Below, one piece after another: positions 59,108 to 64,000 of a DNA stretch of 64,000 bases. The DNA is from Aggregicoccus sp. 17bor-14. Its GTDB lineage: Bacteria > Myxococcota > Myxococcia > Myxococcales > Myxococcaceae. Position numbers and translations under genes: made by a program. The notes below the pieces were generated by a model that was not told the DNA's origin, did no database searches, and saw only the letters and a program-made list of their open reading frames with translations. The DNA lies in the NCBI RefSeq assembly GCF_009659535.1, contig NZ_VJZZ01000025.1:1-64000 (forward strand), given 5' to 3'. Position 1 is the first letter of the stretch; each line of letters begins with the position of its first letter.

Positions 59108-61603
59108 ATGCGCTCGAGAGACGCGAAGGCCGAGGTGCCGCAGTCCTGGCGAGACCGCAGTCGGAGGGCGGGCGGCGCGCTGCTCGCGCTCACGCTCGCG
59201 CTGGCCGGCTGCAGCGACGACAAGAAGGGCGACGAGACGCCGCCGCCCAGCACCACGCCGCGCTACAGCGCCAAGCTGACGCGCACCTCGCACGGCATCC
59301 CCCACATCACCGCGGACAGCTGGGGCAACGCGGGCTTCGGCCAGGGCTACGCCTTCGCCGAGGACCACGCCTGCATCCTCGCGGACCAGGTGCTCAAGGT
59401 GCGCGGCGAGCGCGCGCGCTTCATGGGCGCAGGCGAGCTCAACGCGAACGTGGCGAGCGACTTCGTGCACCTCGCGCTGGACCTGCGCTCGCGCGCCACC
59501 GCGGCGCTGCAGGCCCAGCCGCCCGAGGTGCACGACTTCATCGACGGCTACATCGCCGGCTACAACCAGTACCTCAAGGATGTGGGCGGCCCTCCGGGCG
59601 TGAAGGGCTGGTGTGCTGGCAAGGAGTGGGTGCGCGCCATCGACGAGCAGGACCTGATGGCCCACCTGCTCTCGCTCTCGCTCGCTGCGAGCAGCACCCA
59701 GTTCGTCAGCAACATCGCGGCCGCCGTGCCCCCGGGAACGAGCGGCGCGGGCGTGCGCATCGACCCGGTGCCGCTCTCGAGCGAGAAGGCGCTCGCGAGC
59801 AACGGCTGGGCCATCGGCGCGGAGCGCTCGGCGAGCGGCAAGGGCATGGTGGTGGGCAACCCCCACTTCCCCTGGGAGGGCGAGCTGCGGCTCTGGGAGA
59901 GCCACCTCACCATCCCCGGCCAGCTCAACATCTACGGGGTGAGCCTCATGGGCACGCCGGGCGTGCTCATCGGCTTCAACGAGCACGTGGCCTGGACGCA
60001 CACCTTCTCCAGCGGCCAGCGCTTCAGCATCTACGCGCTGCCGCTCATTCCGGGCCACCCCACGCAGTACCTGTACAACGGCGCTCCGCGCGACATGGTG
60101 AAGAAGACCTTCGGCATCACCGTGCTGCAGCCGGACGGCAGCCAGCTGCCGCTCAGCCGCGACATCTGGTTCAGCCACTACGGGCCCATCATCAGCCCCT
60201 TCGGCGTGGAGTGGAACAGCAGCTTCGCGCTCACCTACCGGGACGCGAACCTGGACAACAAGGTGTTCATCAACCAGTTCCTCGCGATGGACCGCGCGAA
60301 GAGCCTGCAGGAGTTCCAGCAGGCCTATTCCTCCGTGCAGGGCATCCCCTGGGTGAACACCATGGCCACCGACCGCGACGGCAACGTCTGGTACGCGGAC
60401 GCCTCCGCCACGCCCAACCACTCCGCCGCGGCGCTCGACCGCTGGCGCCGCATCGTGCAGAACGACTCGCCGCCGGCCTCCCCGCTCAACCCCCTCATCG
60501 CCACGCTGGCGGGCGCGGGCCTCATCGCCTTCGACGGCAGCGACCCGGCCAACGAGTGGGTGGAGGCGCCCGGCGCGCGCGACCCGGGCCTCGTGCCCTT
60601 CGCGGGCGTGCCGCAGCTCTCGCGCCGCGACTTCGTCTTCAACGCGAACGACAGCCACTGGCTCGCGAACCCCGCCGCGCCCCTCACCGGCTTCAGCCCC
60701 CTGCAGGGACTCTCGCGCGTGCCGCAGAGCCTGCGCACCCGCATGAACCTCACCCTGCTCACCGAGCAGAAGTCGGGCGGGGCCTCGGGTGCGGACGGGA
60801 ACTTCACCCTGGACGAGCTGAAGGGCGCCATCCTCAGCAACCGCAGCATGAGCGAGGAGCTGGTGCGCGCCGACGTGGTGCAGCGCTGCAAGGCCCGCCC
60901 CACGGGCGGTGAGGCGCGCACGGACATGTCCGCGGCCTGCAAGGTGCTCGAGAGCTGGGACGGGCGCTTCGATGCGGACAGCAAGGGCGCCGTGCTGTGG
61001 CGCGAGTTCAGCGTGGCCCTCTCGCGCAGCGAGCCCACGCGCGCGGGCACCTTCTTCGCGGTGGACTTCAACCCGGACCAGCCCATCACCACGCCCAACA
61101 CCCTCACGCCCGCGCCCGCCTCGGGCCCGGACCCGGTGCTGACGGCGCTGGAGACGGCCGTGGCGCGCCTGCAGCAGGGCGGCAAGGCGCCGGACGTGGC
61201 GCTGAAGGACGCGCAGTACCACCTGCGCGGCACCACCCGCTTCGGCCTGCACGGCGGCCTCGGGCGCGACGGCGTGGCGAACGTGGTGACCTACCGCAAG
61301 TCCAAGACCTCGGCGGATCCCACCACGCCGCAGGGCCCCATCCTCGATGCGGTGAGCGGGCTCACCACGGACGGCTACGTCGTGAACTACGGCACCAGCT
61401 TCCTCATGGCCATGGAGTTCACCGACGCCGGGCCCCACGCGGAGGCCTTCCTCACCTACGGCGAGAACGAGGACCCCGCCTCTCCCTTCTACTCGGACCA
61501 GCTGCAGCTCTTCACCCAGAAGCAGTGGCGTCCCATCCGCTACACGGACGCGGACATCGCCGCGGACCCGGCGCGCACCGAGAAGACGGTGACGGGCGGC
61601 TAG
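59108..61603 (+). CDS. Penicillin-acylase-type N-terminal nucleophile lipoprotein
   Basis: An 831-residue lipoprotein (lipobox LAGC, Cys35) of the penicillin/acyl-homoserine-lactone acylase family. The pro-protein is expected to cleave itself before Ser231 (ALASNGWAIG), leaving that serine as the catalytic nucleophile; the alpha chain is residues about 50-215. GNPHFPW and HTFSSGQRFSIYALPL are the beta-chain oxyanion-hole motifs. Myxobacteria make few acyl-homoserine lactones of their own, so destroying those of prey or competitors is a plausible role. N-terminal SHGIPHITADSWGNAGFGQG is the family start. Confidence 0.9.
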   Translation: MRSRDAKAEVPQSWRDRSRRAGGALLALTLALAGCSDDKKGDETPPPSTTPRYSAKLTRTSHGIPHITADSWGNAGFGQGYAFAEDHACILADQVLKVRGERARFMGAGELNANVASDFVHLALDLRSRATAALQAQPPEVHDFIDGYIAGYNQYLKDVGGPPGVKGWCAGKEWVRAIDEQDLMAHLLSLSLAASSTQFVSNIAAAVPPGTSGAGVRIDPVPLSSEKALASNGWAIGAERSASGKGMVVGNPHFPWEGELRLWESHLTIPGQLNIYGVSLMGTPGVLIGFNEHVAWTHTFSSGQRFSIYALPLIPGHPTQYLYNGAPRDMVKKTFGITVLQPDGSQLPLSRDIWFSHYGPIISPFGVEWNSSFALTYRDANLDNKVFINQFLAMDRAKSLQEFQQAYSSVQGIPWVNTMATDRDGNVWYADASATPNHSAAALDRWRRIVQNDSPPASPLNPLIATLAGAGLIAFDGSDPANEWVEAPGARDPGLVPFAGVPQLSRRDFVFNANDSHWLANPAAPLTGFSPLQGLSRVPQSLRTRMNLTLLTEQKSGGASGADGNFTLDELKGAILSNRSMSEELVRADVVQRCKARPTGGEARTDMSAACKVLESWDGRFDADSKGAVLWREFSVALSRSEPTRAGTFFAVDFNPDQPITTPNTLTPAPASGPDPVLTALETAVARLQQGGKAPDVALKDAQYHLRGTTRFGLHGGLGRDGVANVVTYRKSKTSADPTTPQGPILDAVSGLTTDGYVVNYGTSFLMAMEFTDAGPHAEAFLTYGENEDPASPFYSDQLQLFTQKQWRPIRYTDADIAADPARTEKTVTGG

Positions 61604-61624: not shown

Positions 61625-63730
61625 TCAAATCTGGATGCCGGCCATCAGGCCTGGCCACAGCCGGTACGCGTGGTCGCCGGCGTGGAACACCTTCTGCGGC
61701 AGCCACGAGGCCGTGTCGTCGCCCTTCGCCGTGCGGTAGAGGTTCGCCGTCACGCCCGCGAAGAGGCCGAAGTGGCGCCGCAGGTCCTTGCCCACCACGA
61801 GCCTCGCGCGGCTGAGGAAGTCATCCGGCGGGGAGTGGTCTCCGAGGCGGTAGTCCCAGGCTCCCGTGGTGACGTCGAGCTCCAGGTAGCCCGGCTGCAC
61901 GTCCAGGTGCAGCCCGAGGCCCGCGCCGTACCAGGTCCGGTAGGTGCCGCGGTAGGGCACCAGGCCGTAGTTGAGCGTCGCGTACACGAGGCGCCCGCCG
62001 TACTTGAGCCCCACGTTCACCGGGGCCACGTCGTCCGCCCACACCTGGAAGGACAGGCGCCCCTGGCGCACGATGCTCAGCAGGCCGATGGGCACGGTGG
62101 CGTCGTCGGACACGTTGAGCAGCCCCAGCTGCAGGCCGCGCACGGTGCTGCCGATGTTCACGAGCCCCACCTGCGCGCCCACCACGCCCTCCGAGATGTT
62201 CACGAGCCCCAGCTGCAGCCCGCGCACCTCCTGCGCGAAGTTGAGGCCCGCCGCCACCTGCGCCCCCGTCATCCCCGCCGCCACCCGGTTCACCGTGGAG
62301 CTGAACTGCAGGCCGCTGAAGGCGCCCTCGGTGCTGCTCACCAGCGCGCTCGCCTGCACGCCCGTCACGTCCGAGAAGGCGAGGTTGCCCGCCCCCACCT
62401 GGACCCCGCGGAACTGCCCGCCCACCACGTTGGCAATCGCCGCGAGCTGCACGCCGCGCGCGCTGCCGTCCACCCAGCCCACGCCCGCGGCGAGCCCCAG
62501 CCCCTCGAGCCGCGTGGAGCGCACCGCGAGCACGCCGAGCGCGAGGTGGTTCAGCGCGCGCGAGCCCCGCAGCGCGTTGGTGTCCAGCGGCGGCACCAGC
62601 GAGACGTTCACCGCCACCGTGGGCGCATCGGCCGGGGGCGCGCCGGGCAGCGCGTTGTCCACCTGGCCGGGGCCGCCGCGCGCCACCGTGCGCAGCAGGC
62701 GCAGCGGCACGAGCTCGTCCTCGAGCAGCTCGCGGTAGCCGGTGCGCGGCACGCTCAGCTCCGCGCCCCACGCCTGCGCCTCGCGCTCCAGCGTCACGCC
62801 GTAGCGCCCGGGCGCGAGCGCCAGGTCCAGCGGACGCCCCGGCCCCTTCTGCAGCTCTGCCGTGAGCCGCCCCTGCGTGTCGCGCACGAAGAGCCGGCCG
62901 GCCAGGGGCCCCGAGAAGCGCAGGCGCGCACTGGAGGCGCGCAGGTCCGTCATCACCAGGTCGCCGGTGCCCGCGAGCTGGATGTCGTAGGTCGCGTGCT
63001 GCGGCCCGCCCGCGCTCTTCTCCGTGCGCGCCAGCGTCTCGTGGAAGGCGAACTGGTAGGCCTCGTTCAGCGTCACCCGGCCGTCACCGCTCGCGTCCGC
63101 TGCGCCGCGCAGGCCGGTGAGCAGGAAGTGCGTGAAGAAGGAGGCGCCCAGCGCATCCGACTCCTGCGCGACCTCGTTCTCCGAGCTCGAGGCGAGGAAG
63201 GCGTGCCCCTTCACCTGGCTGCTGAGGTCCTCGAGGAACGCGGGGCGCCGCACCCCACCCTTCGCGCGCGTCACGGCTCCCGAGGCACAGGAGTCGAGGA
63301 TGGCGATGCGCACGTCCGCGGGCGCGGCCTGCAGCGCCGCGCGCAGCTCGCCGTACTCCAGGCGCTCGCCGCGCAGCAGCAGCCCCTCCGCATCCGAGTG
63401 GCCCGAGTAGTAGACGATGAGCTCGTAGCGCCCGCTGTGCCCACCGGCCCTCGCGAGGCGCTCGCGCAGGTGCTCCAGGGCCGCGCGCAGGGCGGCGCGG
63501 TCCGCGTCCGGGAGCACCTGCGCGTCCGCAGGGGAGACGCCGCCCAGCTCCGTGAGCACCTGCGCCATCGCCTGCGCGTCGCTGCCCGCGTAGCGCAGGC
63601 GCGCGCGGCCCAGGCCTCCGTCGCTCGCGCCGACCACGAGCGCGAAGCGGCGGATGGCGGGGGCTTCGGGCACGGCGTCCGCCGCGAGCGCGGCGGTGGA
63701 GAGGAGGAGCGAGAGGAGCGCGGCTTTCAT
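61625..63730 (-). CDS. Caspase-like protease (C14) with surface-type repeats
   Basis: A 701-residue exported protein. After a signal peptide (residues 1-17) comes a caspase/metacaspase domain (about 25-235): the catalytic dyad is H111 in YYSGHSDAEG and C148 in ILDSCASGA. The middle (about 235-385) is beta-rich, and after about 385 a repetitive region follows (GVQLAAIANVVGG, GLQLGLVNISEGVVGAQVGL, VNIGSTVRGLQLGLLNVS), with a period of about 20-23 residues: G-(L/A/V)-Q-x-G-x-x-N, of the LA_2272-like surface-repeat kind. The end resembles a barrel (LGLHLDVQPGYLELDVTTGA). A caspase joined to an outer-surface repeat is unusual. Its start at ATG 63730 is divergent from no adjacent plus-strand gene. 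Confidence 0.85.
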   Translation of the reverse strand: MKAALLSLLLSTAALAADAVPEAPAIRRFALVVGASDGGLGRARLRYAGSDAQAMAQVLTELGGVSPADAQVLPDADRAALRAALEHLRERLARAGGHSGRYELIVYYSGHSDAEGLLLRGERLEYGELRAALQAAPADVRIAILDSCASGAVTRAKGGVRRPAFLEDLSSQVKGHAFLASSSENEVAQESDALGASFFTHFLLTGLRGAADASGDGRVTLNEAYQFAFHETLARTEKSAGGPQHATYDIQLAGTGDLVMTDLRASSARLRFSGPLAGRLFVRDTQGRLTAELQKGPGRPLDLALAPGRYGVTLEREAQAWGAELSVPRTGYRELLEDELVPLRLLRTVARGGPGQVDNALPGAPPADAPTVAVNVSLVPPLDTNALRGSRALNHLALGVLAVRSTRLEGLGLAAGVGWVDGSARGVQLAAIANVVGGQFRGVQVGAGNLAFSDVTGVQASALVSSTEGAFSGLQFSSTVNRVAAGMTGAQVAAGLNFAQEVRGLQLGLVNISEGVVGAQVGLVNIGSTVRGLQLGLLNVSDDATVPIGLLSIVRQGRLSFQVWADDVAPVNVGLKYGGRLVYATLNYGLVPYRGTYRTWYGAGLGLHLDVQPGYLELDVTTGAWDYRLGDHSPPDDFLSRARLVVGKDLRRHFGLFAGVTANLYRTAKGDDTASWLPQKVFHAGDHAYRLWPGLMAGIQI

Positions 63731-63785: not shown

Positions 63786-63818
63786 TCCCTCACCCCGACC
63801 CCCGGCTCAGGGGCGCCA
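63786..63818. repeat. Degenerate copy of the dispersed repeat
   Basis: TCCCTCACCCCGACCCCCGG shares the left half of copy A, but the hairpin half is decayed. It ends within the stop of the truncated gene at the window edge. Confidence 0.4.
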
Positions 63819-64000
63819 GAGGGCCTGGCGGCTCGTCCAGGAGAGCCCGCCGCGGCCGTCTCGCACCACCACCCAGAAGGTGACCACCTGGGCCTCGGCG
63901 CTGCCCCCGTCCTCGAAGGGCTTCCACTTCACGAGGTTGCGCGACTCCTGCCCGCCGAAGTCCGTGCCGCCCGTCTGCTGCAGGTTGAACTCGCCGAGGC
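63807..64000 (-). CDS. 3' end of an unidentified gene, cut by the window edge
   Basis: The last 64 codons of a minus-strand gene are visible, ending with TGA at 63807-63809. It reads LGEFNLQQTGGTDFGGQESR, then VVTFWVVVRDGRGGLSW and ends in RQALWRP. The strong G/C third-position bias supports coding. The FWVVVRDGRGG strand resembles the last beta-sandwich strand in myxobacterial surface or receptor-like proteins, but no family can be assigned. The stop falls in the degenerate repeat, 76 bases before the caspase gene. Confidence 0.7.
   Translation of the reverse strand, partial: LGEFNLQQTGGTDFGGQESRNLVKWKPFEDGGSAEAQVVTFWVVVRDGRGGLSWTSRQALWRP

Follow-up and report, generated by a model that had tools for sequence, protein, structure and literature searches.

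The gene at positions 61625-63730 on the minus strand of the window, the 64,000-nucleotide stretch of Aggregicoccus sp. 17bor-14 contig NZ_VJZZ01000025.1 analysed here, encodes a caspase-fold protein of 701 residues with a predicted C-terminal outer membrane barrel, and with somewhat more confidence than doubt we read it as an outer-membrane-tethered periplasmic protease, probably Arg/Lys-specific, that acts in a TonB/ECF envelope-signalling module. The reading frame called in the initial annotation is genuine: it opens with ATG, and its codon usage resembles that of coding sequence. From the N-terminus, and all on the minus strand, the protein comprises a putative signal peptide at approximately residues 1-19 (MKAALLSLLLSTAALAADA; 63674-63730), a caspase domain at approximately residues 25-255 (62966-63658), a small and presumably β-sandwich-like domain at residues 259-345 (62696-62956) whose strands are present in the AlphaFold model, a β-solenoid stalk of LA_2272 repeats at residues 371-556 (62063-62620), and an 8-stranded β-barrel at residues 557-701 (61628-62062). 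The AlphaFold2 model, run on a 66-sequence alignment, has a mean pLDDT of 87.9, and that of the C-terminal half alone a pLDDT of 94.5 and a pTM of 0.81. The export signal proposed earlier is consistent with the N-terminal sequence, the hydrophobic h-region of which is also found in 70 of 79 relatives.

Catalytic domain and active site

The N-terminal domain matches Peptidase_C14 (PF00656, residues 27-211) with E=1e-9 and 38.8 bits against a gathering score of 21.4. In the predicted model it adopts a caspase-haemoglobinase fold that aligns with Arabidopsis metacaspase-4 (6w8r) at Z 20.1 and an rmsd of 2.7 over 204 residues (VIA-align) and with caspase-7 at Z 19.6, and the caspase assignment of the initial annotation is thereby upheld by both profile and predicted structure. 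A phmmer search of the PDB with the single target sequence gives a best E of 0.19 and no direct sequence relative, and the 66-sequence profile reaches metacaspases at 6e-6. The score against the EACC1-associated caspase model NF047832 is 69.2 bits, below the NCBIfam cut-off of 140.

The catalytic dyad is intact, as first noted, with His111 (codon 63398-63400) within YYSGHSD and Cys148 (codon 63287-63289) within DSCASG. Neither residue varies among the 66 full-length proteins, and both align with the SGH and DSC motifs of metacaspases. The S1-pocket residues D51, S109 and D146 are likewise invariant in the 66 proteins and align with the metacaspase pocket, where D51 and D146 are the equivalents of Asp95 and Asp211 of TbMCA2 and make the pocket acidic. 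As the acidic pocket of TbMCA2 binds basic residues (PMC4357240, PMC6426788) and the matching residues of the target are invariant, its sequence predicts that the enzyme probably cleaves after Arg or Lys. Beyond the catalytic cysteine lies a flexible loop at residues 155-169 (63224-63268) with the motif R-x-K-G-G, in which pLDDT falls below 50 at residues 157-169, yet K157, G158 and G159 are invariant (66/66) and R155 is present in 64 of 66 proteins. The motif in this disordered loop may be a site of self-processing.

Repeat stalk and outer membrane barrel

The LA_2272 repeat model NF047436 matches the target at E=8.5e-11 and 41.5 bits, above its curated cut-off of 25, and confirms the LA_2272-type repeats suspected in the initial annotation. 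The periodicity given there, Q-G-x-x-N every 20-23 residues, does not hold: what recurs is G-x-Q-x(4-5)-N, at intervals of 16, 15, 16, 16, 15, 14 and 14 residues (426-532). The repeat is not a product of chance, since residues 368-701 contain 10 G-x-Q motifs against 2.1 expected and a maximum of 7 in 5000 shuffles. Structure prediction also redraws the second half of the protein, in which the repeats fill the first part and the barrel-like end proposed earlier takes up the remainder. The solenoid resembles GlmU-type β-helices with a Z of approximately 14 but an rmsd of 9.3, and its type is therefore unsettled.

The barrel is modelled as eight strands spanning residues 558-700 with an OmpA/OprF-like fold, and its structural matches agree, namely the designed transmembrane barrel 6x9z (Z 15.7, rmsd 2.1), OprF (14.8), OmpA (14.2), NspA (13.3) and OmpW (12.8); avidin, a soluble barrel, ranks below these outer membrane barrels at Z 11.8. 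Across the family, the residues on one side of every strand are hydrophobic (mean hydropathy 1.6-3.0, with no more than 6% charged) and those on the other side are polar or glycine. The two-faced strands fit, together with the signal peptide, a predicted location in the outer membrane, and the terminal isoleucine, in place of the phenylalanine usual in outer membrane barrels, counts against it. An even number of strands brings both barrel ends to the same side, which in outer membrane barrels is as a rule the periplasmic one, and the turns on the termini side of the model are short (3, 2 and 5 residues, against 4, 2, 11 and 19 for the opposite loops). Given the strand number, the short turns and the usual rule, the stalk and caspase of the modelled protein should face the periplasm.

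Genomic neighbourhood

The target's stop codon lies approximately 20 bp from that of a convergent penicillin-amidase family gene on the plus strand (59108-61603), which shows no sign of belonging to the caspase system. Upstream, the stop of a minus-strand gene for a lipoprotein of 320 residues (A4 family, with a lipobox cysteine) is found at 63807, 76 bp from the target; the window holds the C-terminal part of this gene (63807-64000), which extends to approximately 64769 of the contig (L010 5808-6770). It is followed outside the window, at 64772-67444 of the contig (L010 6773-9445), by a gene for a TonB-dependent receptor, after which the contig ends. TonB_C, Plug and barrel domains are found in the receptor, with no Pfam match to an STN domain at E up to 0.1. 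No sigma or anti-sigma gene is present beside the target.

A sister caspase of 780 residues is encoded on contig C12 in the order sigma, anti-sigma, caspase, ExbB-ExbD-TonB and contig end, and C12 probably adjoins the target's contig, C25. The end sequences of the two contigs have no overlap common to both, and we therefore infer, rather than observe, that the sister operon and its ExbB-ExbD-TonB genes adjoin the target. Other candidates for the missing neighbour were discarded, the second ExbB-ExbD-TonB set (contig C20) since an intact gene follows it, and the receptor homologues on contigs C19 and C5 since their own flanks are present. The C20 set lies within positions 60000-78000, directly after TamA- and TamB-like genes, and its ExbD is 96% identical to the C12 copy. 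On C5, positions 158000-172000 hold paralogues of the receptor and lipoprotein genes without a caspase, near the pair of genes between which the caspase lies in Myxococcus. This suggests that the receptor-lipoprotein block has moved.

A scan of named genomes returned 167 relatives, of which 80 were kept, mostly from Myxococcota with some from Spirochaetes and other phyla, where the architecture recurs. At the 68 loci whose upstream sequence extends over 1.7 kb or more, counting genes within approximately 7-8 kb, an anti-sigma gene is found in 56, a TonB-dependent receptor belonging to the same family in 17, both in 5 and neither in none. The anti-sigma loci usually also carry an ECF sigma gene. 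Because 11 loci keep the anti-sigma and caspase genes without a detectable sigma gene, the data suggest that these two form a functional pair; such orphan pairs, with no sigma gene within 7 kb, occur in Myxococcus, Pyxidicoccus, Citreicoccus and Archangium. In the present genome, all three anti-sigma homologues lie directly upstream of a caspase gene. The anti-sigma product has one transmembrane segment followed by a conserved periplasmic domain, and gives a weak NCBIfam anti-sigmaE match (4e-6, below the cut-off) and no Pfam match to FecR-type anti-sigma factors at E up to 0.1. An R-x-K-G motif resembling that of the caspase loop follows its transmembrane segment in 34 of 53 gene models, with most of the failures being truncated models, and serves only as a lead to the cleavage site, as so short a shared motif could be a chance match or, in the anti-sigma factor, could belong to the domain's first strand.

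A quick tree places the target as sister to a clade of 21 members (SH-aLRT 100), and the Myxococcus, Pyxidicoccus and Citreicoccus members of that clade have the order ExbB-ExbD-TonB-receptor-lipoprotein-caspase. In Hyalangium, the receptor block lies approximately 4 kb from the caspase on the same strand, and at two loci neither the block nor the sigma pair is beside the caspase and the block is found elsewhere. Since many genera also have the receptor-lipoprotein block with no caspase beside it, the partners are not obligate, and the association of receptor and caspase is specific to one clade with five further cases.

These neighbourhoods bear on what the caspase does. Rather than a signalling component, it could be an effector downstream of an envelope stress response, in protein quality control or developmental lysis, with the sigma factor regulating expression alone and the TonB neighbour present by chance or for transcriptional reasons. 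The sigma-operon linkage of Myxococcus xanthus metacaspases, reported in the 2012 survey (PMC3501461), is in keeping with such a role, as is the frequent occurrence of the receptor block without a caspase, but the pairing of anti-sigma and caspase persists where the sigma gene is gone, and the receptor adjoins sigma-linked barrel-caspases at the five further loci. With 6.9 Mb holding three full-length receptor homologues, about 1% of randomly chosen genes would have one within approximately 8 kb, and the 5 of 56 sigma-type loci with a receptor exceed this expectation; given the relatedness of the loci and the variation in receptor density between taxa, the excess is supportive only. On this evidence the effector role appears somewhat unlikely.

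The tight receptor-lipoprotein-caspase order within one clade would also suit a protease that processes cargo of the adjacent receptor, cutting its substrate during outer membrane crossing by the logic of Oar-dependent PopC secretion, and protease secretion in M. xanthus is known to require a TonB-dependent transporter (PMC6434023). Such a function is to be regarded as unlikely, since no cargo gene was identified and a receptor is missing from the surroundings of most sister proteins.

The contact killing and surface display proposed in the initial annotation are unsupported, and an autotransporter-like protease, whose barrel would carry caspase and stalk across to the outside of the cell to cut foreign or neighbouring proteins, is distinctly improbable: the order of protease, β-solenoid and C-terminal barrel resembles type V secretion and NCBIfam names LA_2272 proteins surface-repeat proteins, but an 8-stranded barrel is too narrow to offer a passenger a lumen, the N-terminus should be periplasmic by strand parity and loop lengths, and the neighbours are TonB/ExbBD or ECF sigma/anti-sigma genes, with none for toxins, immunity or secretion among them. 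A type Va autotransporter in particular was rejected on strand number, with 12 strands expected in the translocator barrel and 8 following the solenoid in the model. An anti-phage defence caspase was likewise set aside, as none of the PADLOC families matched at E up to 1.

Proposed function

In the envelope-signalling role that we favour, the protein would be exported and active as a cysteine protease with a caspase/metacaspase fold. Its barrel and solenoid stalk would tether it to the outer membrane on the inner side, with the enzyme in the periplasm, and it would belong to a module for envelope signalling or envelope processing. The usual form of this module would consist of an ECF sigma factor, a single-transmembrane anti-sigma factor and the barrel-caspase, with the target's branch having apparently left the sigma pair to adjoin a receptor driven by ExbB-ExbD-TonB and a lipoprotein. 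In the most probable mode of action, the caspase would be released or activated by what happens at the receptor or the barrel, perhaps through a cut in the R-x-K-G-G loop, and would then cut a partner protein in the periplasm. The obvious candidate for this partner in the sister proteins is the anti-sigma factor, whose cleavage would free the sigma factor; as the target has no adjacent anti-sigma gene, this part of the model is borrowed from them. A more specific version, which we put forward tentatively and think unlikely to hold in full, is that the TonB-ExbBD-driven receptor and the lipoprotein activate the tethered caspase, which makes the first cut on itself and on the periplasmic part of the anti-sigma factor at a shared R-x-K|G site, freeing the ECF sigma factor. 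If true, a TonB-gated, first-cut caspase would give Fec or DegS/RseA signalling a counterpart built on a caspase.

Discussion of bacterial caspases mostly treats them as proteases of cell death or defence that work inside the cell. Exported, outer-membrane-tethered caspases tied to sigma/anti-sigma pairs or TonB receptors would put caspase-type proteolysis in envelope signalling, and the partner anti-sigma factor offers, in tractable myxobacteria, a concrete candidate substrate for metacaspases whose operons were noted in 2012.

Relation to known systems

The target shares its fold, His-Cys dyad and acidic pocket with the metacaspases and orthocaspases, including Arabidopsis metacaspase-4 and TbMCA2, and differs from them in being exported and in carrying a solenoid and a predicted outer membrane barrel; we know of no metacaspase characterised so far that is barrel-anchored. 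It shares the repeat of the LA_2272 and VC2662 proteins (NF047436, NF047437) without reaching the VC2662 equivalog cut-off, and in the target this repeat forms the stalk joining caspase to barrel; a search of the literature on LA_2272 returned nothing relevant. The co-occurrence of a TonB-dependent receptor, a single-transmembrane anti-sigma factor and an ECF sigma factor in some relatives recalls FecA-FecR-FecI signalling, from which the present system differs in its additional caspase and in a receptor that starts with TonB_C. MxcH-type receptors also have an N-terminal TonB_C, and the MxcH model hits the receptor beside the target at residues 38-137, but the score is far below the equivalog cut-off (88.5 vs 925) and this receptor is linked to a lipoprotein and a caspase.

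Sigma-70-linked metacaspase operons were described in M. xanthus DK 1622 by Asplund-Samuelsson (2012; PMC3501461), whose survey also lists 46 metacaspases with N-terminal helices that are possibly signal peptides. Such operons and the probable export of some metacaspases have thus been known since 2012. The sister copy on C12, with its caspase beside a sigma factor, fits this description, whereas the target has no sigma gene beside it, and the anti-sigma factor, outer membrane barrel and TonB-receptor link go unmentioned in the passages of the survey consulted. The literature searched contained no report of a barrel-anchored caspase or of a caspase-TonB receptor link, and these two features appear to be new within that scope. 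The initial annotation had contrasted the target with bacterial caspases as mostly cytoplasmic; the target does appear to be exported, and export is less unusual than that contrast implied, given the 46 metacaspases with possible signal peptides (PMC3501461) and the paralogues of the present genome.

Most of these other paralogues, encoded on contigs C4, C2, C5 and C18, follow an ECF sigma gene and a single-transmembrane anti-sigma-like gene, and most have signal peptides or lipoboxes, which gives the genome a set of putative envelope caspases, each with its own regulator. Finally, two records titled Comamonas sp. KCTC 72670 carry myxobacterial genes, with a target-type caspase identical to the one in a myxobacterial genome from the same family, and the record looks misnamed.
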